A stretch of DNA of 64,000 bases, taken from contig NZ_CP146516.1 in assembly GCF_037081835.1 (NCBI RefSeq), positions 186,001-250,000 of the forward strand, given 5' to 3'. The notes under the pieces are model-generated. The model was not told where the DNA came from and made no database searches. It saw nothing but the letters and a program-made list of their open reading frames with translations. Below are positions 10,354 through 37,160 of this stretch, piece by piece; within the stretch, counting starts at the first letter, position 1; each line of letters starts with the position of its first letter. The DNA is from Spirobacillus cienkowskii. Its GTDB lineage: Bacteria > Bdellovibrionota_B > Oligoflexia > Silvanigrellales > Silvanigrellaceae. A program made the position numbers and the translations under genes.

Positions 10354-11952
10354 TTAGAATTTTGTTGGATTGTCGTGGCTATCAACATAAGGGTCAATGC
10401 TTTCTAAAAAAGGAGCCATAGATTTAACTGGAATTTCGGATTGAATAATAACCCATCGACCATTGCGATTGATGTATGGTCCTGGCAAAGGAATTAAACC
10501 TCTAGGAAGGACATAGTTACCAAAAGAAATAGATTTTGTAATAAAAATTCTTAAAGCATTTAAAGTTTCGGGATTTAATTCTTTGCCATTATTTGCAAAT
10601 AAATCACCAATTGGTGTATAGAGTCTAATTTTTGGAATAAGTTTATGACCATCTGTTTCAAATGTTATCGATGCATTTTCTGAATAGCTAGTGATTTTAT
10701 TAATTGTACTTTCAAAATTTGCGAAAGTAATTTCACCAGATGGAGATGAAAAGTAGTCAGATAAAATTGAAGAATTTTTTCTGAGCCTTTCTATAAAGTC
10801 AATAATTTTAATTTGTGCTGAAATCATATCAAATAAAAATGTAATGCTAGAATAATTTTTAAATGATTCTGTGGGCAAAAAGAAATCTGCTCCCGAAGAT
10901 GAAACAGAAGTTAAAATATTACTTGAATCTTGATTTTCTTGCTTTTGAACTAATTTTTCGACAAATAAATTTTGATTAGAAAAAACAATTGTGTGTCCTT
11001 GAATACTCCAAAATACGTCTAGATTAATACTTGAGTCTTTGTTTAATAGTGTAAGAATGTTATGAAAGTTTTTTCTAAAGTCTATTCGTTTGAAACCAAA
11101 TCGCCCACAAAAATCCCAAGGATTTATTTTTTCGGAACATATAGAATTTAAAAAATGTTTAGGGTTTTTAATAGAAAAAATAATTTTAGAGTGATTAATG
11201 TTTTTTTGTTTATCATAATTTACGTGTTCTATAGAAATATTAATTGAATGATTTATTAAAAAATTTTTTACTAAAACTGGAAAATTATTAAATATAATAT
11301 TTTTTAATATTTGTGATGATGTATTTAAAGTTTGTTTAAAATTATTTTCAATAGCTAATAATAAATCTTCTTTTAACGTGAGTTGTAATTGAGTTGCTCC
11401 GCCTAACAATAATGTTTTGCCATTCCACAATTCTTCAACTAATGAAGTTAAAGGCATTGCAAAAGGGCTGTCATTGTTTTGAGAATCAACTATTAAAGGT
11501 TTATTGTTTTCTTCGAATTCAGAGTACAAATTATTTCTAAAAATAATAGGATTATATAAATAAACATCATCTTGTGACTCTGTAGATGAGAGTATATCAT
11601 TTAATATATTGTCAACAATAGTAAAAATTTTTGCAGAATTTTGTGGTTGAATATCAAAAATTAAAAAACCTTGAGCTCCAATGTTTTTAGTTGGTGGTTC
11701 ACTTATTTCTTTTGCTTTATTATTTTCTAAACCTAAATTTTTTGAAAAGTTAAAAAGCTGATTATTTGCGCTTTTTGTGTAGTTAAATGCCATTGCAAAC
11801 GTTGGTTTCCCTACTTTTTGCGCAAGATAAGATAACTGAGGGGTATTAGATTTTAAATTTTGATAAAAAACTACTAGTGCAATTGTTGTAATACAGCATC
11901 CTGTAACAACTATTATTGTAAATAATTTTAGTAAAATTACAAACAATTTCAT
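10354..11952 (-). CDS. Unknown membrane-anchored periplasmic protein
   Basis: A 532-residue protein with one N-terminal transmembrane segment (about residues 5-30) and a long, presumably periplasmic domain. No known family is recognised. It contains several F/Y-rich beta-strand-like stretches, a short Cys pair (SICSEK, WDFCG) and a conserved-looking C-terminal block (PRGLIPLPGPYINRNGRWV). The architecture recalls DUF3352-type anchored proteins, but this is only a resemblance. It is embedded between uvrD and the MBL hydrolase with 32-bp and about 5-bp gaps, so it is expressed in that operon. Confidence 0.7.
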   Translation of the reverse strand: MKLFVILLKLFTIIVVTGCCITTIALVVFYQNLKSNTPQLSYLAQKVGKPTFAMAFNYTKSANNQLFNFSKNLGLENNKAKEISEPPTKNIGAQGFLIFDIQPQNSAKIFTIVDNILNDILSSTESQDDVYLYNPIIFRNNLYSEFEENNKPLIVDSQNNDSPFAMPLTSLVEELWNGKTLLLGGATQLQLTLKEDLLLAIENNFKQTLNTSSQILKNIIFNNFPVLVKNFLINHSINISIEHVNYDKQKNINHSKIIFSIKNPKHFLNSICSEKINPWDFCGRFGFKRIDFRKNFHNILTLLNKDSSINLDVFWSIQGHTIVFSNQNLFVEKLVQKQENQDSSNILTSVSSSGADFFLPTESFKNYSSITFLFDMISAQIKIIDFIERLRKNSSILSDYFSSPSGEITFANFESTINKITSYSENASITFETDGHKLIPKIRLYTPIGDLFANNGKELNPETLNALRIFITKSISFGNYVLPRGLIPLPGPYINRNGRWVIIQSEIPVKSMAPFLESIDPYVDSHDNPTKF

Positions 11953-11984
11953 ACTTTTTAAATTCCTTATCTTAATTAAGTAAG

Positions 11985-13997
11985 TTATCTGAAAAGTTCA
12001 AAAAGCTTTCTGGCAGCGTCCATTCTTTTGGCTTCTTCAGAGTTTGGATCTGTTTGATCTATCTTAATTAAATTATTTGGAATTGCAGAAAGAAATCTAG
12101 ATTTTTTTGGTTCGATATCATTATGATTTGCTCTCCCTTGTTTTCTAAAACCACAATGAGAAATAAATAATCGATATTTTGCTCTAGTAATTGCAACGTA
12201 GAAAAGTCGTCTTTCTTCTGCTACTAAATTAGAAAAAGGTATACTTTTTTCATGAGGAATGATTCCTTCTTCAACTCCAATTAAAAATACATTTGGAAAT
12301 TCTAGACCCTTAGATGAATGCATTGTCATTACTTGAACCTTGTTTGTTGATTCTTGAGATTTGCCAAAAAAATCTCTATCCAAGTGAAGTGCATCAATTA
12401 CAGCTTGTATGTTTTCTTCTCTAAGTTCAAGTTTTTCTATAACACTAAATACTTTTTCAACAAGTTCGATTCTAAATTTTGCAACCTGCATATTTACAGA
12501 AGTACTGAGAATTTCTTTTTTTAAACCTAAATACTCATAACATTCCCTGAGATAATTTGATATCTCAAAAATATTATTGCCTTGTTTTAATTTTTCACCA
12601 AATTTATTCCAATTATTTAAAAAATCTTCTATACCTTTATGTTCTTTTGCTAAAATTGATAATACACTTTTAAAGTCAGTACTATTGTTATTTTGCGTTT
12701 GTTGATTATATGTATTTTTAATTTTTTCTAGGGTAGTTATTCCTATACCCCTTGATGGAGTATTTATTATTCTAAATAAACTATTTAAATCATTTCCATT
12801 ATGTGCAAGTTTTAAATAAGAAAATAAATCTTTAACTTCTTTACAATCAAAAAATTCGTTTCCGCCATAAATTTTATATGGAATTTGTTTTTCAATAAAG
12901 ACTTGTTCAATAGGAATAGTTTGTTTATTTGACCTTACAAGAACCGCAACCTGTTCAAAACTAAAATTATGAATTTCTTTTTTTAGTTTGCTAATTGTTT
13001 CTGCTACAAAAATACTTTCATCTCTTTCGTTTTCGCTAGAATAAATTGTAATAGGGTATAGATTTGGCTGTTTGCTCCATAATTCTTTTCCAAGACGTTC
13101 CGTGTTTTCTCTAATTACAGAATTTGCGGCATTTAATATGTTAGGGCTACATCTGTAATTTTGTTCGAGTGTAATTTTTGTACATTCTGGAAAATGCTTT
13201 ATAAAATCAGAAATGACTGAGGGCCTTGCTCCTCTCCAAGAGTAAATGCTTTGATCATCATCTCCCACTGCACAAACATTTTTTAGCTTAGAAGATAATG
13301 TGCAAATTAAATTAAATTGAGCATAACTTGTATCTTGGTATTCATCGACCATTAGGTATAAAATTTTTGATTGAATATTATTTAATAATTCGTTATTTTT
13401 TTTGAGACCTAAAAGTGTTAAATAAACAATGTCATCAAAGTCTATTAAATTATATAATCTAAGTCTTCTATTGTATGAATTAAATAATTTAGCTAAAATT
13501 TTACCATCAAATATATTACCATTTTTCTTAAAATCATCTTCTGTATAAAGGTTATCTTTGTAAAATGAAATTTTTTGACTTGCTTCTTGAATAGATAAAA
13601 TTTCTTCTAAATTAAGTTCTTTTAATGAGTCTTTTAGAATATTTAAACTTTCATTTTCATCAGAAATCGAAAAGTCTTTATTTAGAGAAAAATAATTATA
13701 ATATTTTCTAAGAATTTTTAAAGCAAAAGAGTGAAAAGTAGATAGCTCAACTTTTTTTGCAATTTTTTCTCCAATAAGAGAAGCTAATCTTGCATGCATT
13801 TCTTTTGCAGCTTTATTGGTAAAGCTTACTGCAACAATTGATTCTGGCTTAACTCCTGAATAAATCATCCAAGCAATTCTTGATGTGATAACTTTAGTTT
13901 TTCCGGTACCTGCTCCAGCAATAACAAGTACAGGACCATTAATCGCTGTGACAGCTTTTTTTTGTTCGTTATTTAAGGAATGCAGTAAATGTTCCAT
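11985..13997 (-). CDS. UvrD/PcrA/Rep-type superfamily 1 DNA helicase
   Basis: ATP-dependent 3'-5' helicase for repair or fork restart, 670 residues. Motifs in order: Q motif LNNEQKKAV, Walker A GAGTGKT, motif II DEYQDTS, motif III GDDDQSIYSWRGA, motif IV QNYRCS, motif V TMHSSKGLEF and motif VI VAITRAK. It is shorter than UvrD/PcrA (about 720) and close to Rep; the C-terminus lacks the Tudor-like end. It starts 10 bp after the pilD stop and is the second gene of the leftward operon. Confidence 0.95.
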   Translation of the reverse strand: MEHLLHSLNNEQKKAVTAINGPVLVIAGAGTGKTKVITSRIAWMIYSGVKPESIVAVSFTNKAAKEMHARLASLIGEKIAKKVELSTFHSFALKILRKYYNYFSLNKDFSISDENESLNILKDSLKELNLEEILSIQEASQKISFYKDNLYTEDDFKKNGNIFDGKILAKLFNSYNRRLRLYNLIDFDDIVYLTLLGLKKNNELLNNIQSKILYLMVDEYQDTSYAQFNLICTLSSKLKNVCAVGDDDQSIYSWRGARPSVISDFIKHFPECTKITLEQNYRCSPNILNAANSVIRENTERLGKELWSKQPNLYPITIYSSENERDESIFVAETISKLKKEIHNFSFEQVAVLVRSNKQTIPIEQVFIEKQIPYKIYGGNEFFDCKEVKDLFSYLKLAHNGNDLNSLFRIINTPSRGIGITTLEKIKNTYNQQTQNNNSTDFKSVLSILAKEHKGIEDFLNNWNKFGEKLKQGNNIFEISNYLRECYEYLGLKKEILSTSVNMQVAKFRIELVEKVFSVIEKLELREENIQAVIDALHLDRDFFGKSQESTNKVQVMTMHSSKGLEFPNVFLIGVEEGIIPHEKSIPFSNLVAEERRLFYVAITRAKYRLFISHCGFRKQGRANHNDIEPKKSRFLSAIPNNLIKIDQTDPNSEEAKRMDAARKLFELFR

Positions 13998-24551: not shown

Positions 24552-25505
24552 ATGGACGCTAATGAGCTTTGGCATAAAATACAAACACAAATAGACACAA
24601 TTAAGCAAGAAACTGATGCTGCACATCATCCTGTTTTGCAAAGAGCATGTGATTCTATTAAACAGGCTATCGATATATTTTTTAGTGAACAAGTTGCAAT
24701 GGGACTTCCCCACCCCCATCCACGCAGTCGAATTTATCGCTCAGAGCCAAGAACTTGGGATATTCGAGATTCTACATCTAAAGAAATTTTAGATCTTATC
24801 TTAAAAAAATGTAAAAAATCTAAAAAACCACCCGCATGTGTTTTTGATTTAGATGGTACTTTATTTGATGTGGGTTATAGAACTATTGGTATTTTAAAAG
24901 AATGGTTGAGCTCAGATTCACCGTTAAATTTTGATAAAAGTTTAATTCAAAAAATTTCTAAAATTAATTATAATCATGTTGGTTATAGTTTATCTCATTT
25001 ATTTGAAAATTCGGGATTTGACTTACGTAATCAGCAAGTAATGAGTATTTTTTCTTCTATTGAACGGATGTGGAAGAAAAAATTTTTTGATGGAGCGTCT
25101 CTTGTAAAATACGATCAAATTTTAGAAAATTCTAATGAGTATGTAAGGTTAATTAATAATAAAAATATTGATGTTTTTTATTTAACTGGAAGATATGAAA
25201 AGACAATGCGATCCGGTACCTTAGAGCAATTAAATAAATTTAATTTTCCTTTTGTAGAAGAAAAAGTAATTTTAAAAAATAACCCTTTTGCTGATGATCA
25301 GTTATTTAAAGCAGAAGAAGTTAAAAAAATATCAGAAAAATATAATATTGTAGGTAATTTTGAAAACGAATATTTAAATTTAGCATTTATGGCATTAGAA
25401 GCAAATAATGCAGTGAATGTGATTGTGGATTCGCAGCACTCAGGACGTCTTACTCCAGTATTAGAAATTCCTATTTACAGGATTTCTGGGTTTGACTCAT
25501 ATTGA
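24552..25505 (+). CDS. HAD-superfamily hydrolase, 3' end altered by IS insertion
   Basis: About 317 residues. An N-terminal helical extension of roughly 95 residues is followed by a HAD core: motif I VFDLDGTLFD (nucleophile Asp), motif II FYLTGR (Thr), a Lys in KVILK, and ENEYLN where the acidic motif IV region is expected. The cap lies between motifs I and II. The substrate is unknown, probably a phosphate ester. The last residues (GFDSY) and the TGA stop coincide with the right end of an IS200/IS605 element; joining the flanks without the IS would read on for about four more codons (VRFW) before TAA. Activity is therefore probably kept. Confidence 0.8.
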   Translation: MDANELWHKIQTQIDTIKQETDAAHHPVLQRACDSIKQAIDIFFSEQVAMGLPHPHPRSRIYRSEPRTWDIRDSTSKEILDLILKKCKKSKKPPACVFDLDGTLFDVGYRTIGILKEWLSSDSPLNFDKSLIQKISKINYNHVGYSLSHLFENSGFDLRNQQVMSIFSSIERMWKKKFFDGASLVKYDQILENSNEYVRLINNKNIDVFYLTGRYEKTMRSGTLEQLNKFNFPFVEEKVILKNNPFADDQLFKAEEVKKISEKYNIVGNFENEYLNLAFMALEANNAVNVIVDSQHSGRLTPVLEIPIYRISGFDSY

Positions 25506-25600
25506 CATCCTCCCCTCCCTAAAAACCTCCTAACGTCGATTTTTTGAGGAAGGGGATTCCCTAGATACAAAAGAAAAACTAGCTAGAATTTTTCTTTGTA
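25503..25600 (-). ncRNA. Candidate omega RNA (TnpB guide) at the IS right end
   Basis: TnpB proteins use an RNA made from the 3' end of tnpB through the element's right end, with the guide taken from flanking DNA. The segment after the tnpB stop is G/C-richer and can fold (GGGAATCCCC, CCTCC/GGAGG). The guide would start at the HAD gene's 3' end. This assignment rests on family knowledge; boundaries are approximate. Confidence 0.4.
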
Positions 25601-26745
25601 CGAGTCGGCCTATCATGCCCGATAGGGAACATGTTCTTGTATGCGTTGAGTATGTTTATACTCGCATTGACATCACGATCATGGATCGTATTGCACTTTT
25701 CACAAGTCCATGTTCTTACTCCAAGCCCGATCCGTGGTAGTATTTCACTACACTTTGAGCACGTCCGAGTTGAATCTCTTTCTGAAATTTCTTTGTATAT
25801 TGAAGCAGCTCTAATGGCTTTGTACTTCAACATATTTTTAAACATCCCTATTCCCGAATCGAGTGATATTCCTGCTAGTTTTTTATTGCGATTCATGAAT
25901 TTACAAGGAACATCACCTACAACAATAAGGGAACATTTTTTAACAAGTTTTGTAGATTCTTTATGCAAATAGTCTTGTCTTATATTGGCTACTTTTACAT
26001 GCAGTTTTCTTTCTTGTTTTGACTTTGGAAGAGAATGATATTTTTTACTTTTTGATTGTTTTCTTTGTGCAAATCGTTGGCATCTTTTTAAATAGCGAAG
26101 TTTTTTTAAAGCATTTTTTCTTAAGTTTGGTCTATCAATCTTTTCACCATTTGAACATGTTGCAAGAGTTTTTATTCCAATATCAATTCCAATTTCTTTG
26201 TCTTCATCCCTTTTAATTCTGATTAATTCACTTTCAAATGCAATATTTAAATACCAATGACCGCTCTTATCTTGACAAAATGAGCCTGTTTTTATTTTTG
26301 CATCTTCTGGTAGTTCTCTTGAATTCCAAAAAGAAAATTCATTCTTATTATAGGATATTTTTCCATCATGAATTTTAATTGCAGATGATTTAAATGGTAC
26401 CCATCCGAGAGATTTTTTACCACGCCAACGCAAGAGTGTTTTAAATTGTTTTCTACGTGTGATGTATTCTTGTGAAATAGCCTGAACTGTTTGAGAATGA
26501 AGACCTAGTTCTTTTGAACTTCCTGCAACTAATCTATCCATTTCTGAAGATGAAAAAAAATACGGAATAGAAATTTTTTCACCCGATTTTTTATCATCTA
26601 TTAATTTAACGGATTTATTTTTAAGAGCATCTTGTTGAGTTTGTTTACAAAAATTCCATACCATATTTACAGAACGAGACATTTGAGATAGCACTCTATT
26701 TGCTTTCCCTGAATCTTTAATTCTGTAGTGATATGTTGTTATCAT
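25579..26745 (-). CDS. tnpB: TnpB RNA-guided nuclease of IS200/IS605
   Basis: 388 residues with an N-terminal OrfB domain, a RuvC core and a zinc finger. Seen: RuvC-I DIGIKTLATCSNG (Asp), zinc finger CSKC...CEKC, RuvC-III HDRDVNASINIL (Asp). At the usual RuvC-II Glu the text reads IVVGDV, with Gly replacing Glu; the next acidic block is YKEISERDSTRTC. TnpB cuts DNA next to a short motif under RNA guidance and favours retention of the element. Its ATG overlaps the tnpA stop by one base (TAATG), so translation is coupled. Confidence 0.9.
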   Translation of the reverse strand: MITTYHYRIKDSGKANRVLSQMSRSVNMVWNFCKQTQQDALKNKSVKLIDDKKSGEKISIPYFFSSSEMDRLVAGSSKELGLHSQTVQAISQEYITRRKQFKTLLRWRGKKSLGWVPFKSSAIKIHDGKISYNKNEFSFWNSRELPEDAKIKTGSFCQDKSGHWYLNIAFESELIRIKRDEDKEIGIDIGIKTLATCSNGEKIDRPNLRKNALKKLRYLKRCQRFAQRKQSKSKKYHSLPKSKQERKLHVKVANIRQDYLHKESTKLVKKCSLIVVGDVPCKFMNRNKKLAGISLDSGIGMFKNMLKYKAIRAASIYKEISERDSTRTCSKCSEILPRIGLGVRTWTCEKCNTIHDRDVNASINILNAYKNMFPIGHDRPTRTKKNSS

Positions 26746-27158
26746 TAATGCTCAACTCCACCTTGGCTTTTAATATACCTTTTCAGAACATTTATAGGAG
26801 CACTGCCTACACTTACTAAGCAATAAGATGTTGTCCAAAAAGATTCTTCCCAAAGTTTTTTTTTGATTTCAGGAAATTCCTTTTTAAGAAGTCTACTTGT
26901 AGCCGATTTCATCGCATTTATATATTTAGAAAGTTCACAGTTTGGTTTTGTTCTAAGCAAAAAATGAACATGATCAGTTTCCCCATTCATTTCCTTAATT
27001 TTTACATTGTGGCTTATCCCAATATATTCTGCAATTTCTCTAAGTCGCAATAACATTTTTTGATTTGTTAAAACTTTTTTTCTATATTTAATAACCAAAA
27101 TCAAATGATAGTTTAAACTAAATACAGAATGATTATTAGAATCTAACTCAATCGTCAT
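26745..27158 (-). CDS. tnpA: IS200-type Y1 transposase TnpA
   Basis: 137-residue HUH single-strand transposase. The metal-binding HVHFLL motif and the nucleophilic Tyr in KRYIKSQG are both present, and the length is normal. It catalyses single-strand excision and insertion of the element. The ribosome site GGGGAG lies 5-6 nt before the ATG and is partly paired in a small hairpin (27166-27182). Confidence 0.92.
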   Translation of the reverse strand: MTIELDSNNHSVFSLNYHLILVIKYRKKVLTNQKMLLRLREIAEYIGISHNVKIKEMNGETDHVHFLLRTKPNCELSKYINAMKSATSRLLKKEFPEIKKKLWEESFWTTSYCLVSVGSAPINVLKRYIKSQGGVEH

Positions 27159-27165
27159 GAATCTC

Positions 27166-27182
27166 CCCTATTAATTATAGGG
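27166..27182 (-). promoter_or_regulatory. Hairpin covering the tnpA ribosome-binding site
   Basis: CCCTAT (27166-27171) pairs with ATAGGG (27177-27182) around a 5-nt loop. On the tnpA mRNA the 3' arm contains most of the G's of the Shine-Dalgarno sequence. IS200 is known to hide its ribosome site in this way. Confidence 0.55.
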
Positions 27183-27509
27183 TACTACCGATTTATTTAA
27201 ATATCAAATTTTCTATATCAAAAATTAATAATTATAATTACGTCTGATTAATAGTACGGCTAAAGCCAACTTTCGACAAGCAAAAATTCCTATCGTCTTT
27301 TTGCATGCCTCGTCAGGCTTTCAATTCAACCTTGCACCGTTTGGTGCTGCGGTCTTTTAAGCTCACTTATATCCCCGGCTTTAGAAGTCGGGGCTTTACG
27401 TTCGTTTCTGGTAAAAAATTTAGCTTTATCTTTAACTATTTGCAAATATATGACATTTAATAATAGAATAATAGGAAAACTAAAACAATAACTAATACAT
27501 TTAATTATA

Positions 27510-28991
27510 TTAGTCGCAACTTTCTAAATTGTTTTTATTTATATATTTTACTAAATAATCTGTACTTACTCTTTCTAATTGTAATTCTGTTGTTAATTTT
27601 GTATCTAATTCATTAGGAATATCGCATGTTCCAATACAGTAAAATTTAATACATTTTCCTATAGTAACGCCATCAAATAATTTTGCTGGAATCTTAGATA
27701 AATTGCTATATTCTGTAATAATAACAGTGTTTAAGTTATTGTTGCTTTTAAAAAAACTATCTGAAATTTTATTTAAAAAAGTAGTGTCAATACCAAAATA
27801 ATCCAAATATTTAATTTTATGTAATAAATTATTAGATATGCTATTAAAATCATTACCTGACAAATACAATGTTTCAAGTATTGCAAAATTATCAAAAATA
27901 CCAACAGGTAAAGAAGTTAATTTATTTCTACTAATTATAAAATCACTTAACAATAACAAATCATCCAACAAATGGGGTTGTAATACACTTATTTTATTAT
28001 TATCTAAACTTAATTTAGTTAATGAATAAAAACCTGATAGTGGACTTATATCCTCGATTTTATTTTCATCTGCGTTTGGTGAATCAGTAATATCCATTGA
28101 TATTTTAAAAGTATATTTAATTTCTTGATCTGTTTTGTCACACAACCCAGCAGCTTGTGCTGTTTTGTATGCAGGCAGTTTTGTATCTGTTTGACACCAA
28201 TACCTATATGTATGATTTAATAGGACAGTGAATGTGCTTTCTAAAGCGCCATCTAAACTATTACGAACTTCAATCTCACAAGGAGTAGCGGTAGTCACTG
28301 TGTTTGGAAATTTTGAGCCTTTTACTTTATTGCCATCTGTGATTAACTCAAGTGTTTTGCATACTTCGTCATTTGATTTTTTATTTAAAAAATTATATGC
28401 TAAATAATCATCTTTTAATTTTAAGTTTTTATGATCAATATAAAAATCACTCAATTCTGCTAAATTTCCAGTTGCTCCACCTAACGTTTTTTCTCCATCA
28501 TTGTTTCGTGATATTTTTCCAACGCTAGTTCCATCTTTTTGTGGAATAAGATAAATAATTCTATTTTGAAAAATTGATAAATGATCATTTAATTTATGAA
28601 AATAATTTTGAAGATTACAAGAAATCATATTATCAACTTCAGGATTATCTATAATTTCTATTTTATCACCATATTCGTTTGATAAATTATAAAAAAATTT
28701 AATTTCATTTTCAATTTCATTTAGTGTGAATTTTTTGTTTTCTAAGAATTTGTTTCTATTTTCTAGTAATGAAATTATTTCAATAAATGAATTGTATTCT
28801 TCATTGGTTTTAAAATCACTTTCTTTCACATTAAATTTATTACATTCTAAATAATTAGAATTAAGTACAACATTGCTTTTAGCTAAAATTTGTTCAATAT
28901 TATTACTTGAATTATAATTATTATTGCATGAATTGCATAATAAAATACATGATAAATATAATAAAAAATTTTTAAAATTTATATGTGGCAT
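27510..28991 (-). CDS. Leucine-rich-repeat lipoprotein
   Basis: 493 residues with a lipoprotein-type signal (hydrophobic FLLYLSCILLCNSC, acylated Cys probably residue 22) followed by an Asn-rich linker. Residues about 300-440 contain five to six LRRs (LTKLSLDNNKISVL, LSDFIISRNKLTSLPVGIF, LETLYLSGNDFNSI) ending with a Cys-containing cap (CIKFYCIGTC). The middle part is not recognised. Surface-exposed LRR lipoproteins usually bind proteins or sugars; a role in adhesion is only a guess. The start is ATG 28991 with GGAG 9 nt upstream, right after a 15-bp hairpin. It lies next to an IS element in the accessory region. Confidence 0.8.
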   Translation of the reverse strand: MPHINFKNFLLYLSCILLCNSCNNNYNSSNNIEQILAKSNVVLNSNYLECNKFNVKESDFKTNEEYNSFIEIISLLENRNKFLENKKFTLNEIENEIKFFYNLSNEYGDKIEIIDNPEVDNMISCNLQNYFHKLNDHLSIFQNRIIYLIPQKDGTSVGKISRNNDGEKTLGGATGNLAELSDFYIDHKNLKLKDDYLAYNFLNKKSNDEVCKTLELITDGNKVKGSKFPNTVTTATPCEIEVRNSLDGALESTFTVLLNHTYRYWCQTDTKLPAYKTAQAAGLCDKTDQEIKYTFKISMDITDSPNADENKIEDISPLSGFYSLTKLSLDNNKISVLQPHLLDDLLLLSDFIISRNKLTSLPVGIFDNFAILETLYLSGNDFNSISNNLLHKIKYLDYFGIDTTFLNKISDSFFKSNNNLNTVIITEYSNLSKIPAKLFDGVTIGKCIKFYCIGTCDIPNELDTKLTTELQLERVSTDYLVKYINKNNLESCD

Positions 28992-29010
28992 AAATATTAT
29001 CTCCGATTAT

Positions 29011-29060
29011 TTTTAACTTTATTAAATATTTATTTTAATTAATAGTTAATAAAGTTAAAA
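29011..29060. repeat. Perfect 15-bp inverted repeat upstream of the LRR gene
   Basis: Arms 29011-29025 and 29046-29060 are perfect complements with a 20-nt loop. It could end transcription of the SDR gene or control the LRR gene, whose start is 20 bp away. Confidence 0.6.
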
Positions 29061-29220
29061 CGTCAAAAAATTTCGAAGCGTCAAAATCCAAACGAATTAA
29101 TTTAATTATATTCAATTATTCTAATTGATTTTTTAAATACGTTTTATACTCGATAAAAAATATACTAGATACTAAGTATCAAATATCTCATAATTTTTCA
29201 AAGTAAATGTATTATCATTG
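29061..29220. other. Spacer with short palindrome
   Basis: AT-rich DNA after the SDR gene. It holds the palindrome GATACTAAGTATC (near 29167-29180) and no ORF. Confidence 0.4.
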
Positions 29221-30645
29221 TTATTTTTTTGATAAAAATTTTATCATCCCATTAAAAATATAGCTGTGAAATGGAAATACTGTGTACCAATAAATACGAC
29301 CAAATAGACCTAACGGTCTAAACGTTGCTGTTTGAACTATTATATTATTTTTATTTATTTTAAATTCTAACCAGGCTTCTCCTGGCAATTTCATTTCTGC
29401 ATAAAGAAGCAATCTTCTATTTGCCTTATCTGCAACCAAAACGCGCCAAAAATCTAAAGCTTCCCCTGTTGATAATTCTGTTTGACTTTTTCTTCCTCTA
29501 CGCAGGCCCACACCGCCAAATATTTGATCAATAAAACCCCTTATTTTCCAGAGCATGTTACCAGAATACCATCCATTTTGACCTCCAATTGACCATATTT
29601 TTTCAAGCGAGACTCCCACATTTTCGCTCTTTTTTTTACGAATGTCTGTAAAGCATCCATCACTTGGTACTTCCAAATATTGAGAAATTCCATCACTAAA
29701 TAATTCACTGGTTAAAGCGTCTTTCCAGCTTGAAAGAACTTGGTTTTGTTCTATTTTATTGAACGCCAACTTAATAGATGTTTTATAGTCAATTAGATTT
29801 ATTTTTATTAATTTATTTAAATTTGCTTCTTTACAGATTGTTTCGTTTTTCATGCTTTCTACAAGATTTTTAGCAAGAGGGTATGATGTTGCTGTTACAA
29901 AATAAAGCCAATAAGAAGAAATTTTTGGTGTCATAATAGGAACAACAAATATTTTTCTATGCAATTTTCTAAATTTAGCAAAGATTAATAACATGTTTTT
30001 ATAGGAAAGTATATCTGGTCCTCCAATATCGTAACTTTTATCATATGTTTCTTTTTTTCCTATAACACCACAAAGGTAATCTAGAACATTTTTAATTGCT
30101 ATCGGCTGTGTTTTTGTGTTTAGCCACTCTGGTGTAATCATTATTGGTAATTTTTCAACCAAATCTCTCATGATTTCAAAAGAAGCACTACCTGATCCAA
30201 CAATAATTCCTGCTCGCAGGGTAGTTAAGGCATATGTTCCTTGAGAAAGAATATTTTCTACATTTTTTCTGGATGCTAAATGTTTAGATAAAGTGACTTC
30301 ATTAATAAGTCCGCTTAAATAAATGACTTGCTTGACCTTAGTATTTTGAATTTTTTCCTTAAAATTATTAGCAGATTTTTTTTCTAGTTCTTCGAAGTTT
30401 TTTGTATTTGTAGCCATTGAATGAATTAAATAAAATGCAATATCTATATCATTTGGAATTTTATTTAAAGATAATTTATCTAAAAAATCAACTTCAATAA
30501 CTTTAAGATTATTTGAATTGTATTTTTTTTCATTAAATCTTTTTTTATCTCTTACGCAACAGATTACAGAATATTTTTTATTTAATAAAACAGGAAGTAA
30601 TCTTTTAGCAATATAACCTGTTCCGCCTGTCAGTAATATTTTCAT
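29221..30645 (-). CDS. NAD(P)-binding SDR protein with DUF2867-type C-terminus
   Basis: About 474 residues. The N-terminal Rossmann fold has the GGTGYIA dinucleotide loop (atypical extended SDR, NmrA-like), with FYLIHSMA and YLSGLIN in the following strands. The C-terminal part, from about residue 310, matches the DUF2867 layout (RRGRKSQTELSTGEALDFWRVL split across two strands, LLLYAEMKLPGEAWLEF, FRPLGLFGRIYW). Such fusions are common in bacteria; the substrate is unknown. ATG 30645 is taken over a TTG five codons upstream because the Rossmann fold starts directly at MKILLTGG. Confidence 0.85.
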   Translation of the reverse strand: MKILLTGGTGYIAKRLLPVLLNKKYSVICCVRDKKRFNEKKYNSNNLKVIEVDFLDKLSLNKIPNDIDIAFYLIHSMATNTKNFEELEKKSANNFKEKIQNTKVKQVIYLSGLINEVTLSKHLASRKNVENILSQGTYALTTLRAGIIVGSGSASFEIMRDLVEKLPIMITPEWLNTKTQPIAIKNVLDYLCGVIGKKETYDKSYDIGGPDILSYKNMLLIFAKFRKLHRKIFVVPIMTPKISSYWLYFVTATSYPLAKNLVESMKNETICKEANLNKLIKINLIDYKTSIKLAFNKIEQNQVLSSWKDALTSELFSDGISQYLEVPSDGCFTDIRKKKSENVGVSLEKIWSIGGQNGWYSGNMLWKIRGFIDQIFGGVGLRRGRKSQTELSTGEALDFWRVLVADKANRRLLLYAEMKLPGEAWLEFKINKNNIIVQTATFRPLGLFGRIYWYTVFPFHSYIFNGMIKFLSKK

Positions 30646-30675
30646 TATTAATTCTTTCAAGTGATGATTTTGTTA

Positions 30676-30840
30676 TGCTAGTTAAAAGCTGAGAAAATTA
30701 TTATGAGGCTTAAAAAATAGCTATAATTTGTTAAATAATTTTTGCGAAAACAAAAATAACAAAGGCGCTACCAATGGACTAGCAAATCCAATTCATCATT
30801 TTTATATCTTACTATCATCAATTTTTTTTCTCAACTCAAT
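30676..30840 (+). mobile_element. Decayed left end of an IS982-type element
   Basis: About 160 bp resemble the first 160 bp of the intact IS at 31417, including the terminus (TGCTAGTTAAAAGCTGAG versus TGCCAGTTAATAGTTGAG), the leader and the first codons of the transposase. The second Trp codon has become TAG. It is an older, broken copy in the same orientation. Confidence 0.75.
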
Positions 30841-31008
30841 CACAAAGTGTTAAACTCTTTAAGTCTTTTTGTTATGGGCAATATTTTATCCATCAGGTTT
30901 GAGTCTTCTCCAAAAAGACGTGTTAATGTTCAAGTCAAGCTTTTAAAAAATTCTCAACAGATTTTAGCTTTAAAATTGGCGATCCAGTGCGCCTTTCTGA
31001 TAGTCTAA
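30823..31008 (+). pseudogene. Coding-like fragment, possibly transposase remnant
   Basis: A run of about 60 sense codons ends with TAA at 31006-31008 and translates to a Lys/Arg- and Leu-rich tail (KVLNSLSLFVMGNILSIRF, SSPKRRVNVQVKLLKNSQQ, then a hydrophobic end). It has no start codon with a ribosome site and is fused to the decayed IS left end. It could be the C-terminus of an unrelated transposase; I cannot name the family. Confidence 0.35.
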
Positions 31009-31408
31009 GAATTGAATTGTAGTATTAAAAGAGATAAATTTTTTATTATAATTTAGTATTTTGTATAAGGTTTAATTTTTTTTCAATACGCTTTATTTTT
31101 ATAATAACAAATATAATAGAAAAAACAATATAAAAAGCTAAAAATCCATGAGAAAATTCTACAAATAATTTGTGTTCACTTAAATACATTTTTAAAATAA
31201 CAAAAAATATATTTAAAATTAAAAAAATATTCTGAGTAATAGTAAGATAATAGCAAAAATATAGGTTTAATACTCTCCAGTTCTTTTTTGATTTAAAAGC
31301 AGTTTTTGATCTATAACCAAATACTTTATTGGGTTCACTATCTTTAGACAGTTGCGCAATTCCTATTATTATAAAGTAACTAAAAATATGTAATATATTA
31401 TCTATGTA

Positions 31409-31416
31409 TATTTCTA
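31409..31416. repeat. 8-bp target-site duplication, left copy
   Basis: TATTTCTA directly abuts the left terminus of the IS; an identical copy is at 32437-32444. Confidence 0.9.
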
Positions 31417-32436
31417 TGCCAGTTAATAGTTGAGAAAGTTATTGTGAGGCTTGAAGAAATAGCTCCAATTTGTTAAATAATTTTTGCACAAACAAAATTA
31501 ACAAAGGAGCTACCAATGGACTGGCAGAGCCAACTCATCACTGTATACCTTACTACCTGCGATTTCTTTTCTCAACTCTCTCCAACCTCTTTTTTAAAAA
31601 TTAGTCCAAACTCAAATCCCTCGTTCACAGACCAAGAAGTCACCACTATTTACATCTTTGGAGTTTTAATGAAACAAAAAAATATAAAAGCTATTTTTAA
31701 CTTCACTAAAAATTTTATTCCAAACTGGTTTCCTCACTTGCCTTCTTATGAAGGATTTTTGTCAAGACTTAATAGCTTAAGTAAACTCTTTCCTGAACTT
31801 GCAAACTTTATTTTAAAAAATAATAAATTTAAAATCCCTAAAACAAAATCCAAACCTTTTATTCTTATTGACTCTTTACCTATTATACTCACAACTGGTT
31901 TTCGGGCGCACAAGTGCAATACTGCAAACGATATTTCTGCTATTGGCTATTGCTCTTCAAAAGATAAATTTTACTATGGGTTAAAACTTCATCTCGCTGC
32001 TTTGTTTCAAAATAAAAAACTTGCCGCACCTATTGATTTTAAAATCACACCCGCCGCAACTCACGACTTAACTGCTGTTAAGAATGATCTTTTAAACTTC
32101 AAACATTCGCAAATCTTTGCCGATCGTGCTTACTGTGACAAATCAACTAAAAAAAACTTGAATCAAATAAACTCTAAATTACACACACCAATTAAACTCT
32201 CTCGGAATAAAAAAACTCTTTCTAGTGATGAGAAAGTTTATTCTAAATCTGTTAGCTCTATTCGGCAGTCCATTGAAATCCTTTTTAACTGGTTAATTGA
32301 ATCCAGCGGTATTCAAATCGCATCAAAAGTTCGATCGACTAAAGGCCTTATCGTCCATGTTTTCGGACGATTTTCTGCCTGCCTGTTTAACTACTTATTC
32401 AAATTCTAATTGATTTTTCTCAACTATTAATTGGCA
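31417..32436 (+). mobile_element. IS982-family insertion sequence, intact
   Basis: A 1,020-bp element. Terminal inverted repeats begin TGCCAGTTAATAGTTGAG (left) and TGCCAATTAATAGTTGAG (right, inverted), with one mismatch. It is flanked by a perfect 8-bp duplication and contains one full transposase gene. It is recent, given the intact ends, ORF and duplication. Confidence 0.92.
31516..32409 (+). CDS. IS982-family DDE transposase
   Basis: 297 residues, full length. DDE-type core: ILIDSLPI (first Asp), YYGLKLHLAAL with the YxGxKxH pattern typical of IS982, IFADRAYCD (second Asp) and the downstream QSIEILFNWL region that carries the Glu. ATG 31516 is preceded by AAAGGAG. It is the only gene of the element. 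Confidence 0.9.
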   Translation: MDWQSQLITVYLTTCDFFSQLSPTSFLKISPNSNPSFTDQEVTTIYIFGVLMKQKNIKAIFNFTKNFIPNWFPHLPSYEGFLSRLNSLSKLFPELANFILKNNKFKIPKTKSKPFILIDSLPIILTTGFRAHKCNTANDISAIGYCSSKDKFYYGLKLHLAALFQNKKLAAPIDFKITPAATHDLTAVKNDLLNFKHSQIFADRAYCDKSTKKNLNQINSKLHTPIKLSRNKKTLSSDEKVYSKSVSSIRQSIEILFNWLIESSGIQIASKVRSTKGLIVHVFGRFSACLFNYLFKF

Positions 32437-32444
32437 TATTTCTA
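32437..32444. repeat. 8-bp target-site duplication, right copy
   Basis: TATTTCTA follows the right terminus of the IS and matches 31409-31416 exactly. Confidence 0.9.
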
Positions 32445-32648
32445 TTTTTTATTCTCCTTAAATATAAATAAATTTTGGAGTAATGAGATTTAATCTTGTA
32501 TATTTTGCTTTTTAATACGTCAATATAAAAACCAGAAAATTTTTAATAATTGAAAGCTAATACTTTTGGTCATCTACTTCAACGAATAATTTTTTTGGTT
32601 AGTTTATTGTAAAATTTTTTAAAGTTACTTTGATTATGGAGTGTTATA

Positions 32649-32750
32649 ATGATTGACAATATTTTTTTTAATATTTATTTAAAAGAAGAAGAATTTTTTT
32701 GTCTTAATATTGTTGATATATATATTTTCTTAATTGATAAATGGATATAA
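32649..32750 (+). CDS. Possible 33-residue leader peptide
   Basis: A short ORF (MIDNIFFNIYLKEEEFF start) with GGAG 7 nt before its ATG, ending 37 bp before the dioxygenase-like gene. It is hydrophobic with an acidic middle. It may be a leader or chance; codon composition cannot decide. Confidence 0.3.
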   Translation: MIDNIFFNIYLKEEEFFCLNIVDIYIFLIDKWI

Positions 32751-32787
32751 ATTTTGTATAATTCTAAAAAATGGAGAATTTTCTTAT

Positions 32788-33381
32788 ATGAACAATAAGA
32801 TTTTGTCAATAATTAATTGTATAAATATCCAAAAAAATATTTGCATTAAAGATATAAAAAAAATATTTGATTCAGATGAATATAGATTAAATTTGGATGA
32901 TGTAATGCCATACTTAACAGATCCTTGCGAAAATCCTTATAATAGAAAGGTTATTTATAATTCTGATTTGTATGAGCTCATTTTAATGACTTGGAAAAAA
33001 GAAAAATACTGCTTACCTCATGATCATGGAATTTCAGAAGGATTAGCTTTTGTATTAAATGGGAATGTTAAAAACGTAAGTCTAAATTTAATAGACAAAA
33101 CATTAAATATTCTAGAATTTAAAAAAGGAGATAGTTTAATAATTCATAAAAACTTAATTCATGCTATGAAATCAATAGGAACAGAAACACTAGTCACAAT
33201 GCATTTCTATACACCAAGTATTTCTAATATGAGAGTGTTTGATGTAAAGAATAAAAAACAATGTATTGTCAATGATAGTTGTGGGGCATGGTGGCCAAAA
33301 GATGAGAATCAAATTATAAAATTTGAAAATTTTGATAAAAGAATGTTGATCTTTTCAGATCTATTTATTGATGAGAATTAA
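32788..33381 (+). CDS. Cysteine dioxygenase-like cupin protein
   Basis: 197 residues of the type I cysteine-dioxygenase family, which oxidises the cysteine thiol to the sulfinate with O2 on a non-haem iron held by three His. Seen: LILMTWKKEKYCLPHDHGISEG, with the two N-terminal metal His in the cupin HxH motif, then KGDSLIIHKNLIHAM with the third His, and TMHFYTPSISNMRVFD, which matches the family's HxYSPP-like region. ATG 32788 is chosen (GGAG 11 nt away); the frame is open to TTG 32734. An ATP-grasp gene follows after 60 bp in the same direction, suggesting a shared pathway. Confidence 0.75.
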   Translation: MNNKILSIINCINIQKNICIKDIKKIFDSDEYRLNLDDVMPYLTDPCENPYNRKVIYNSDLYELILMTWKKEKYCLPHDHGISEGLAFVLNGNVKNVSLNLIDKTLNILEFKKGDSLIIHKNLIHAMKSIGTETLVTMHFYTPSISNMRVFDVKNKKQCIVNDSCGAWWPKDENQIIKFENFDKRMLIFSDLFIDEN

Positions 33382-33441
33382 TATAAATAATTTTCATATT
33401 TTAAAAATTAGAAATTAATATTAAAATAAATGGAGTCGTTA

Positions 33442-34698
33442 ATGTCTGTAAGATATTTAGTACTTTTGGGTGCAGATCAATTTTTGCGTGAAAGAATGAT
33501 TGTTGCAGCCTTACGAAACTTTAATTGTAAGGTTATTGCAATAGTAAAAAACAATGTTTATTTAAAAAATCGATTTTTAGATGACTTATTGCAAGCAGAT
33601 CCTACAAATAGTGCAGAATGTATCCAGGCTTTACAAAGTTTTTTGCTTTTAAAACCTGGATCGATCATAGGTATTGTTCCATGTAATGATTGGACTCTAC
33701 TAGCGGCTACGAATATTTCAAATTTTTTTAAATTACCTAGTTTAAGTTTAGATACAGTTATAAAGTCTCGCGATAAATTTAAAATGAAAAATGCATTTTT
33801 ACAAAGTGATTTACCAATTCCTAGAATTTTTGAATTTAAAAATTTTGATGAGCTAAATTTTTTAGCAAAAAAACTAAATTATCCAGTTGTAATTAAACCC
33901 AAAGATTTTGGTGGAAGTGGCGGGGTTATAAAAGTAAATTCTGAAGAAGAATTATTTTCTGCATTTAAACATTGTTCTGAAATTTTAAATCAATATTTTG
34001 AAATTTTTAATATTTCAAAAGAAGAATATGTGGTAGAAGAATATATTTCTGCAAAAGATGAAATTTCTGTAGAAATATTTGTTCAAAACAATGAAAAGCA
34101 CGTTATCGCTGTGACTGATAAATACTTAGGCGAAGAACCTTGGTTTGCTGAAATTGGCCATGTTGTGCCTTCAATTTATACTAATAGTAATTTGGTAAAT
34201 GATATTGCGATTAAAGCGGTTGATGCTTTAGGAATTGATAAAGGTATGTGTCATGTAGAAATGAGAATAACACCAAATAATAATGTTTATCTCATGGAGG
34301 TAGGCGCTCGACCAGGTGGTGATGGAATTATGGATCTGGTTGAGCGAGTTTATAATATTAATCCATATTATTTGCATATCGCTGCTTGGCTTGGAGAAAA
34401 AGTTAACTTCGACAATATAAAATTAACAGAGCCACAGGGAAGCGCTGCTATTGCTTTTTTAAAAGCTCCAGTGGGTAAAATTTTAAAAATAAATCCTTTA
34501 AATAATTATCCTAAAGAAATGCTATCATTGTATGTCAATGCTAAAATTGGTGATATTTCTGAAAATGCAACATGCTGGCGCTCTCGTGAAGGTATTGCTG
34601 AATTTTATTGGAATAAAAAATTTGATCGCAAAATAACTGATCATCTAGAACTTGCAAATAAAATTTCAAATGAAATTTTTGAAGTGGAAAAATTATAA
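33442..34698 (+). CDS. ATP-grasp carboxylate-amine/thiol ligase
   Basis: About 418 residues. An N-terminal pre-ATP-grasp Rossmann-like domain (YLVLLGADQFLRERMI) is followed by the ATP-grasp core: PVVIKPKDFGGSGGV (Lys and glycine-rich loop), VVEEYISAKDEISVE, and the magnesium-binding HVEMRITPNNNVYLMEVGARPGGD. A C-terminal domain of about 100 residues follows, as in carnosine-synthase/BacD/L-amino-acid-ligase-type enzymes, which form amide bonds between amino acids via acyl phosphate. ATG 33442 has GGAG 6 nt upstream. Pairing with a cysteine-dioxygenase-like gene suggests a substrate carrying an oxidised cysteine (inference). Confidence 0.85.
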   Translation: MSVRYLVLLGADQFLRERMIVAALRNFNCKVIAIVKNNVYLKNRFLDDLLQADPTNSAECIQALQSFLLLKPGSIIGIVPCNDWTLLAATNISNFFKLPSLSLDTVIKSRDKFKMKNAFLQSDLPIPRIFEFKNFDELNFLAKKLNYPVVIKPKDFGGSGGVIKVNSEEELFSAFKHCSEILNQYFEIFNISKEEYVVEEYISAKDEISVEIFVQNNEKHVIAVTDKYLGEEPWFAEIGHVVPSIYTNSNLVNDIAIKAVDALGIDKGMCHVEMRITPNNNVYLMEVGARPGGDGIMDLVERVYNINPYYLHIAAWLGEKVNFDNIKLTEPQGSAAIAFLKAPVGKILKINPLNNYPKEMLSLYVNAKIGDISENATCWRSREGIAEFYWNKKFDRKITDHLELANKISNEIFEVEKL

Positions 34699-34711
34699 TG
34701 CCAATAATTAA

Positions 34712-34753
34712 ATACCAATTAATATTTGATGGTTCGTAACTATTAATTGGTAT
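34712..34753. repeat. 13-bp inverted repeat resembling IS982 ends
   Basis: Arms ATACCAATTAATA (34712-34724) and TATTAATTGGTAT (34741-34753), 16-nt loop. The right arm with its flank (AACTATTAATTGGTATATTT) matches the right end and flank of the IS982-type element at 19 of 20 positions. It may be a minimal derivative of that IS or a terminator for the ATP-grasp gene. Confidence 0.6.
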
Positions 34754-34812
34754 ATTTATTTTATCTTGTAATTTAAGAAAAAATATAGAAAATAAATTTT
34801 TTAGATGATCAT

Positions 34813-34858
34813 TCAATTAGCCACAATATTATTTTTAAAGAATATTGTGGCTAATTGA
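34813..34858. terminator. Perfect 18-bp hairpin between convergent genes
   Basis: Arms 34813-34830 and 34841-34858, 10-nt loop, between the ends of the ATP-grasp and aconitase genes. It is a strong stem without an immediate T tract, so probably a bidirectional terminator or mRNA-end stabiliser. Confidence 0.55.
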
Positions 34859-34886
34859 TGAAAAAAATCAATATTAAAATTTTTTT

Positions 34887-37160
34887 CTAGTTTTTAGACG
34901 CCGCAATTAAATTTAATGCACTACCTGCTTTAAACCAACCAATTTGTTGATCGTTAAAAGTATGGTTGAGCATAATATTTTCTGACGCGCCATCAGAATG
35001 TTTAATAGTTAAAGTTAATTGCTTACCAGGAGCAAGCTCTTTAACATTAATAGAGAACGTATCGTCTTCGCGAATTTTTTCGTAATCAGCAGGTGTTGCA
35101 AAAGTCAGAGGGAGCATTCCTTGTTTCTTTAAGTTTGTTTCGTGAATGCGCGCAAAACTTTTAACAATAATTGCTTTGCCGCCAAGATGACGAGGCTCAA
35201 GTGCTGCGTGCTCGCGTGAACTTCCTTCTCCATAGTTTTCTTCACCAATAACAATCCAGCCTATACCTTTGGCTTTATAATCGCGTGCGGTTGCTGGCAC
35301 TGCACCTGTTGCGCCAGTGACTTGATTTTTAACTTTATTGGCTTCGCCGTTAAAAAAGTTAATGGCACCAATAAGCAGGTTGTTTGAAATATTATCAAGA
35401 TGGCCGCGGTACTTTAACCAACTTCCTGCCATAGAAATGTGATCGGTTGTGCATTTGCCTTTAGCTTTAATAAGCAAACGAAGTTCATTGAAGTCTGAAC
35501 TTAAATTAGGAGCTTTAAAAGGACTTAAGGCTTCTAGGCGGTCGCTTTTGGAGTTGATATTGACAACAATTTTTGAGCCATCTGCCGCGGGAGCCACATA
35601 GCCATGTTCGTCTTTAACAAAACCTTTTATTGGCAGATCAAGCCCCTTAGGAGTTTGTAAAACAACCTTTTCACCTTTTTCATTGGTAACAGGCTCTTTT
35701 GTAAAATCGATACTGAGATCGCCTGCCAATGCAAAACCAATGACTGTTTCTGGCGAAGCCACAAATGCGTGTGTTTTCGGGTTGCCGTCATTGCGGGCGG
35801 TAAAGTTGCGGTTAAAGCTTGTGACAATCGAGTTTTTTTCTTGCGCTCCGTGGCGTTTCCATTGCCCAATACAAGGACCGCATGCATTCGCCATCACGTT
35901 AGCGCCAAGTTTTTCGAGCACGCCTAATTGACCATCGCGTTCTATTGTTGCCCTAACCTGCTCGCTACCTGGAGTGATTAAAAATTCACATTTGGATTTT
36001 ACCCCTTGGGATGCTGCTTGTTTGGCAACAGAAGTCACTCTGTCGATATCTTCGTAAGAAGAGTTTGTGCAAGAGCCTATGAGTGCTGCGCTGAGTTTGC
36101 TTGGCCAGTTATTTTCTTTTACGGCCTTTGCAAAAGCAGAAATAGGTGTTGCGAGATCTGGGGTAAACGGACCGTTAATATGTGGTTCAAGAGTGTCAAG
36201 ATCAATTGTTACCACTTGATCATAGTAATTTTCTGGATTTTGTTCGACTTCGGGATCGGGTTTAAGGTAACTTAAAATGTCATTGGCGGCAGAGGAGATT
36301 TCTGCTCTTTCAGTTTTTTGTAAGTAGTCGGACATACGCGAATCGTATGGGAATAGTGATGTTGTTGCTCCAATTTCTGCACCCATATTGCAAATTGTAC
36401 CCTTGCCTGTGCATGATAACGAAGCTGTTCCTGAGCCAAAGTATTCGACAATTGCGCCAGTTCCGCCCTTAACGGTTAGAATGCCTGCAAGTTTTAATAT
36501 AACGTCTTTAGGGGATGCCCAGCCTTTTAATGCGCCAGTTAATTTAACGCCTATAAGCTTTGGAAATTTTAGTTCCCAAGGGATTCCGGCCATGACATCC
36601 ACAGCATCTGCGCCGCCAACGCCAATTGCAATCATGCCTAGACCGCCTGCGTTAGGAGTGTGGGAGTCGGTGCCAATCATCATACCGCCTGGAAATGCAT
36701 AATTCTCAAGAACAACTTGATGAATAATACCTGCTCCAGGTTTCCAGAAGCCAATGCCATACTTTTTGGACACATTAGCAAGAAAATCGTAAACCTCAGC
36801 ATTTTCTTTATTGGCTGTTGCAAGATCTGTTTTTGCGTTGATTTCAGCCTGAATGAGGTGGTCACAATGTACTGTAGAAGGTACAGCAACCTTAGGAATG
36901 CCCGCAGACATAAACTGTAGTAAAGCCATCTGTGCTGTGGCGTCTTGCATTGCAACTCTATCTGGAAAAAAATCGACGTAGTCTTTGCCTCTACCAAATT
37001 TATTGAGTTCTGTACCCTTTCCTCCGTGAAGAGGTTTTAAATGGGCATATAAAATTTTTTCTGCGTAGGTCATTGGTCTGCCAAGGAGCTTGCGCGCAGC
37101 ATCTACATGTGATGCAAAGTTGGCATAAACTTTTTTAATCATATCAATATCTTGTACCAT
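34887..37160 (-). CDS. Aconitate hydratase, mitochondrial type
   Basis: Fe-S enzyme converting citrate to isocitrate in the TCA cycle. 757 residues, the size of the mitochondrial-type aconitase rather than the larger IRP-like AcnA (about 890). 4Fe-4S cysteines are in [10 protein letters not shown] and [10 protein letters not shown]; substrate residues are in [24 protein letters not shown] and [16 protein letters not shown]. An ATG with AGGA 6 nt upstream sets the start. It is monocistronic and convergent with the ATP-grasp gene. Confidence 0.95.

Follow-up and report, generated by a model that had tools for sequence, protein, structure and literature searches.

A cysteine-dioxygenase-like cupin beside an ATP-grasp ligase in Spirobacillus cienkowskii, possibly one half of a dispersed sulfur-metabolite pathway

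Described enzymes and gene neighbourhoods

Similar to the cupin discussed here, the bacterial cysteine dioxygenases (CDOs) of chains 3eqe and 4qm8, from B. subtilis, contain three His residues, an Arg and a Gly in place of Cys93; their SHY-type motif has a T-H-Y counterpart in the cupin. The L-amino-acid ligase BL00235 (chain 3vot) and the alanine-anticapsin ligase BacD share the ATP-grasp domain of the neighbouring ligase, together with its presumed active-site acidic and Arg residues. In eukaryotic CDO, position 93 holds the Cys of the Cys93-Tyr157 cross-link, whereas bacterial CDO has an unmodified Tyr (excerpts of PMC8050391). The Arg60 of CDO contributes to cysteine specificity (excerpts of PMC8050391 and PMC10966181), and the 3-mercaptopropionate enzyme is termed Gln-type in the title of a reference.

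Combinations of a cupin and an ATP-grasp ligase have also been described. SbzM is a cupin dioxygenase which converts L-cysteine to sulfamoyl aldehyde (excerpts of PMC6331615), and some of its homologs in actinomycetes adjoin ATP-grasp genes (text on Fig. 7D of PMC9113183). The SbzM homologs, compared by description only, resemble the present pair in having a CDO-like cupin that acts on cysteine with an amide-forming ATP-grasp gene beside it. The present pair differs in belonging to a parasite of the Silvanigrellales and in having no SbzJ-type dehydrogenase among the neighbours scanned. Oxygenase-cupin operons in which the cupin is the predicted dioxygenase and accompanies ATP-grasp peptide ligases, some with a predicted efflux transporter, are described in excerpts of PMC2922099. 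Those cupins are fusions with diiron oxygenase domains, and the operons also encode a Rieske protein, whereas the cupin described here is a stand-alone protein of 197 aa.

A literature search by titles and abstract beginnings returned nothing on the present gene combination. The preliminary description of the locus knew of no described pathway made of these two genes alone. A cupin dioxygenase and an ATP-grasp ligase as neighbours are already in print, in PMC9113183 and PMC2922099.

The gene pair of Spirobacillus cienkowskii

The parasite of water fleas (Daphnia) Spirobacillus cienkowskii, a member of the Silvanigrellales, contains two intact ORFs on the plus strand where a two-gene unit had been proposed (32788-34698). 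The unit is real, and it is also found in a second genome. All positions are those of the window, i.e., the whole stretch of 64,000 nucleotides that was analysed, unless a contig is named. The features are as follows.

31415..32438, strand +: insertion sequence of ~1.02 kb with a DDE transposase and 23-nt inverted repeats, upstream of the pair
32734..32762, strand +: promoter-like site TTGATA-17-TATAAT, 11/12 matches, ending 25 nt before the ATG at 32788
32788..33381, strand +: CDO-family cupin, 197 aa, with R53, H78, H80, G85, H125, T137-H139-Y141 and a C-terminal DxCGAWWP tail
33442..34698, strand +: ATP-grasp ligase, 418 aa, nearest to the L-amino-acid ligase BL00235; the ORF opens at 33430
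34813..34858, no strand: hairpin with 22-nt arms, 95% complementary, and a 2-nt loop, between the convergent ligase and aconitase genes

The cupin and ligase genes are separated by 60 nt. The ATG at 32788 is the likely start of the cupin, as the alternative longer start, a TTG at 32734, coincides with the TTGATA hexamer of the best upstream promoter-like match. For the ligase, the ATG at 33442 is a better start than 33430 because a GGAG precedes it at a fitting distance and the two congener orthologs have their Met at the aligned position. The TTGATA-17-TATAAT site is weak evidence of a promoter, since the scanned region contains 19 promoter-like sites against a mean of 19.1 in shuffled sequences, and a second 11/12 site lies within the cupin gene (32914). 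The best such site in the gap between the two genes reaches only 9/12. No terminator with a T-run was found in a scan of 32400-34900; the hairpin at 34813-34858 is a possible end of transcription.

The window genome (G000) is a single contig of 2,806,830 bases. A scan of contigs returned two loci in all, the match in an S. cienkowskii metagenome-assembled genome (MAG) being 99% identical. This MAG is probably G057, in which contig C60 carries the ligase at the coordinate it has in the MAG locus (6313), and the pair is present and intact in both S. cienkowskii genomes examined. The two genomes differ at one synonymous and two nonsynonymous positions in the cupin gene and at seven of each in the ligase gene, and on these counts the constraint on the pair seems moderate at best. 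A complete S. cienkowskii genome of 2.81 Mbp has been reported (PMC12321486), and the terms ‘cysteine’ and ‘ATP-grasp’ are absent from its main text.

The assignment of the two products to a cysteine-dioxygenase-like and an ATP-grasp family holds. With the long ORF start, the cupin scores 25.6 bits against Pfam CDO_I (cut-off 23), a family for which B. subtilis provided the only match among 14 control genomes. Its match to the chain 3eqe, deposited as ‘putative cystein dioxygenase’, has an E-value of 1.1e-14. H78, H80 and H125 align with the Fe-binding H86, H88 and H140 of mammalian-type CDO (chain 4ubg), R53 aligns with Arg60 of the same chain, and both the His triad and the Arg are invariant in the four rows of the subtype alignment. 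T137, H139 and Y141 fall on S153, H155 and Y157 of CDO, so that the His and Tyr of the SHY motif are kept with Thr for Ser, again in 4/4 rows.

The preliminary description had singled out the iron ligands and the Cys-Tyr cross-link of the dioxygenase. The three His are in place, both in the alignment with solved CDOs and in all four subtype rows, whereas the cross-link cannot form at its usual place: Gly85 occupies the position of Cys93 in 4/4 rows, as a Gly does in 3eqe. The missing Cys93 does not exclude membership of the family, as the bacterial forms use an unmodified Tyr. The cupin differs from 3eqe in the Thr of its triad and in its DxCGAWWP tail, which is lacking in 3eqe because that chain ends seven residues past the matched part. 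Both the tail and the active-site residues are identical in the proteins of S. cienkowskii, Fluviispira multicolorata and two Priestia plasmids. From these residues, the cupin is a CDO-family enzyme which probably oxidises cysteine.

The ligase scores 78.3 bits against ATP-grasp_4 (cut-off 27; long ORF start used). Its nearest solved relative is 3vot, ‘L-amino acid ligase BL00235’ (E 7.5e-22; by profile 4.9e-29), followed by 4dim (6.6e-20), deposited as phosphoribosylglycinamide synthetase, and in third place by BacD (1.2e-14). The match to the solved L-amino-acid ligases covers the central part only (profile positions 86-309). The BacD equivalog of NCBIfam is matched at 42 bits against a cut-off of 850, and no NCBIfam cut-off is reached among the 25 of 62 matches listed. 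E273, E286 and R290, which we presume to be the acidic and Arg residues of the active site, are kept in 3/3 orthologs. By its family, the ligase probably joins amino acids. Structure predictions gave a mean pLDDT of 36 for the cupin and 51 for the ligase, from alignments of one and three sequences, respectively, and neither is usable.

Neighbourhoods in the phylum and on plasmids

The preliminary description let its proposal depend on the two genes keeping company in other genomes. A survey of 58 genomes of the phylum yielded 16 CDO-family loci, each considered with flanks of ~1.5 kb as far as its contig extends (the stretches of loci L059 and L072 are short). These, and two plasmid loci of 8 kb, were searched with a profile of ligase orthologs and with a broader collection of 31 ATP-grasp frames. 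An ATP-grasp frame adjoins two of the 16 loci, both from S. cienkowskii, and none of the other 14. The cupin-ligase pair is not conserved in the phylum. As the neighbourhoods surveyed outside S. cienkowskii do not pair the two, a pathway of only these genes, as first suggested, is unlikely; in a relative, the cupin is linked to a methyltransferase and a major facilitator superfamily (MFS) transporter instead. The GAWWP tail is found in three of the 16 loci (G000, G057 and F. multicolorata), the subtype profile missing one locus of the 16 (L072).

Phyla beyond that of S. cienkowskii were sampled through plasmid records. Relatives of the cupin occur in 11 records, all from Priestia. In both of the two records examined, a DMT transporter gene lies directly 5′ of the cupin, and the 8 kb considered in each hold no annotated ligase and no ATP-grasp frame by profile. 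Plasmid matches numbered 336 records for the ligase and 80 for the methyltransferase, the best 20 of each being considered; two ligase-bearing records contain no CDO by profile in the stretches examined.

Ligase orthologs at E 1e-40 or better are present in four of 58 genomes (G000, G057, G004 and F. multicolorata, G005), and weaker ATP-grasp relatives are common (38/56 genomes at E 0.001). The orthologs of G004 and F. multicolorata are 56-57% identical to the window ligase and share their neighbourhood, with genes that are hsp20-like and tsaE-like by eye. The 13 and 19 kb examined around them contain no cupin: G004 has no CDO-family match in its genome, and in F. multicolorata the ligase is unlinked to the cupin. 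In the window genome, the hsp20-like gene has its best match at C1:1357053, and the surrounding stretch that was read contains nothing matching the ligase.

G004 and F. multicolorata also have many more ATP-grasp frames on several contigs, and ligases of this kind seem to be abundant in both. Some of the frames are 902 aa long and may resemble the argininosuccinate-lyase fusion PRK02186.

The partners of the cupin in F. multicolorata form a tight run on contig C19 (equal in length to NZ_WFLN01000005.1), in the order cupin, SAM methyltransferase and MFS transporter, with gaps of 33 and 43 nt. This cupin is 40-43% identical to that of the window. S. cienkowskii contains the methyltransferase and MFS genes as a pair with a 27-nt gap (C1:406193-408685), ~187 kb from the cupin and outside the window. 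The methyltransferase (C1:406193-407407) is 48% and the MFS protein 44% identical to its F. multicolorata counterpart, and G057 carries both genes likewise. At E 1e-30 the methyltransferase is found in 3/58 genomes, and the MFS protein at E 1e-10 in three of the eight genomes of the genus, to which that search was limited. The tailed cupin, the methyltransferase and the MFS protein thus occur in the same three genomes (G000, G057 and F. multicolorata), all of which have the ligase too.

The genus search returned no MFS ortholog in G004. A partial methyltransferase match there (38% over 107 aa, E 5.6e-11, from a single-sequence query at E 1e-10) is taken for an unrelated methyltransferase. The pattern is thin, since the three carriers represent no more than two species; the sharing of cupin, methyltransferase and MFS genes is suggestive, not proof. 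A candidate fifth member, the DUF4436 gene that flanks the F. multicolorata cupin opposite the methyltransferase, was dismissed: it is present in two of the eight genomes (F. multicolorata and G004) and departs from the pattern.

The methyltransferase has weak matches to TehB, thiopurine methyltransferase (TPMT) and thiol-methyltransferase families. The scores stay far below the NCBIfam cut-offs for TehB (47.4 bits against 303, 41.6 against 219.5 and 37.7 against 218) and for TPMT (22 against 223). The window-genome protein has a long N-terminal part. The match of the methyltransferase to PRK12335 (TehB) begins at residue 120, ahead of the methyltransferase domain proper.

Beside the methyltransferase-MFS pair, at 11794-13725 of stretch L088 (~C1:408793-410724), a gene encodes a protein whose motifs, by eye, suggest an ADP-ribosylating toxin that also has a lectin-like portion.

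The pair itself lies in a slot (25506-34886) between a HAD-like gene (24552-25505) and the aconitase gene (34887-37160), the content of which varies across the genus. In the window genome the slot contains an IS200/IS605-like transposase pair, an LRR protein, an NmrA/DUF2867 protein, the IS element and the gene pair. In G002, G003 and G006 it holds an aminotransferase-like gene, an MFS-like gene and others (named by eye), and in G004 and F. multicolorata it is nearly empty, with flanks no more than ~0.7 kb apart. The IS element at 31415-32438 is absent from the MAG and is apparently a recent insertion. It was considered as the carrier of the pair and rejected, as the second genome keeps the pair without it; the element is not part of the pathway.

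A possible four-gene pathway and its rivals

The reading tentatively preferred is that the pair forms half of a dispersed four-gene pathway to a sulfur metabolite, the other half being the methyltransferase and the MFS transporter. From its active-site residues, the cupin would use Fe(II) and O2 to oxidise L-cysteine to cysteine sulfinate. The ligase, judged by its family, would then turn a carboxylate into an acyl phosphate and couple it to an amine, with the sulfinate amino acid, or a compound derived from it, as one partner and a dipeptide-like amide as the product. The SAM methyltransferase, encoded 187 kb away, could methylate the product or an intermediate, in either order relative to ligation, and the MFS protein of the adjacent gene may export the product. 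The first step is drawn from residues, and the others from family knowledge and linkage.

In its fuller form, S. cienkowskii and F. multicolorata would possess one and the same pathway and export an undescribed methylated cysteine-sulfinate amide, perhaps for use against or inside the water-flea host; this is rather unlikely. In this reading, the two species would divide the four genes of the pathway over two loci in two different ways, as cupin-ligase plus methyltransferase-MFS in one and cupin-methyltransferase-MFS plus ligase in the other. If true, the proposal would give a Daphnia parasite and its relative a small non-ribosomal route to an amino acid product with oxidised sulfur. It would also mark a GAWWP-tail subtype of CDO which adjoins a transporter or a ligase in all three kinds of genome seen. 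It would likewise show that linkage in a relative can expose partners that the adjacency in the window masks.

A serious rival, close behind the four-gene reading, is that the two genes may be neighbours by chance. The cupin would oxidise cysteine, alone or together with the methyltransferase and exporter, and the ligase would be an independent peptide or amide ligase which landed downstream in the variable slot. What brings the rival so close is the variability of the slot, together with the occurrence of the ligase in G004 and F. multicolorata without the cupin at its side. The same facts count against the four-gene pathway: G004 has the ligase but neither cupin nor MFS protein, and its methyltransferase match is weak and partial, the F. 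multicolorata ligase is unlinked to the cupin, the carriers are two species only, and strangers can become neighbours in a variable slot. Chance is further favoured by the surroundings of the ligase in both other species with orthologs, which lack a cupin and share hsp20-like and tsaE-like genes, and by the lack of any CDO-family match in G004. Other genes occupy the slot in G002, G003 and G006, no such gap exists between its flanking genes in G004 and F. multicolorata, where it is closed, and an IS element was inserted just 5′ of the pair in the window strain. Chance accounts less readily for two genes on one strand with a 60-nt gap and no promoter-like site between them better than 9/12, for the identical arrangement in both S. 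cienkowskii genomes, and for the presence of the ligase in all three carriers of the tailed cupin. If the adjacency is due to chance, the locus would hold an ordinary bacterial cysteine dioxygenase beside a ligase with no assigned role.

It is improbable that the cupin serves cysteine disposal or the formation of sulfite, hypotaurine or taurine, where other enzymes would turn over the cysteine sulfinate, a transporter would export, and the ligase would be incidental or make an amide of hypotaurine or taurine. The closest solved relatives of the cupin are plain cysteine dioxygenases, and the two Priestia plasmid cupins are immediately preceded by a DMT transporter gene, while no ligase is annotated within 8 kb; saccharomicin, with a taurine amide for which cysteine sulfinate decarboxylation is proposed, is discussed in excerpts of PMC3469384. 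A single PF00282 decarboxylase is encoded in the window genome, but 7/8 genomes of the genus have the family, which therefore does not set the cupin carriers apart, and the methyltransferase of the F. multicolorata run is left unexplained. The weak TehB, TPMT and thiol-methyltransferase matches could point to detoxification, the methyltransferase and exporter clearing oxidised S, Se or Te species while the cupin oxidises a thiol or selenol. With TehB at 47 bits against 303 and TPMT at 22 against 223, both far under their cut-offs, this is highly improbable. Least probable of all is chemistry like that of SbzM, in which the cupin would turn L-cysteine oxidatively into a sulfamoyl aldehyde and the ligase would load a derived acid onto an amine. 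The ATP-grasp genes beside some SbzM homologs (excerpts of PMC6331615 and PMC9113183) speak for it, whereas the cupin has the active-site residues and the closest solved relatives of a plain CDO, and no aldehyde dehydrogenase family is present among the neighbours scanned on either side.

Elsewhere in the window, 4576-8583 contains three tandem genes whose products resemble, by eye and by motif, astacin-type zinc metalloproteases. They have possible signal peptides and are possibly host-directed.
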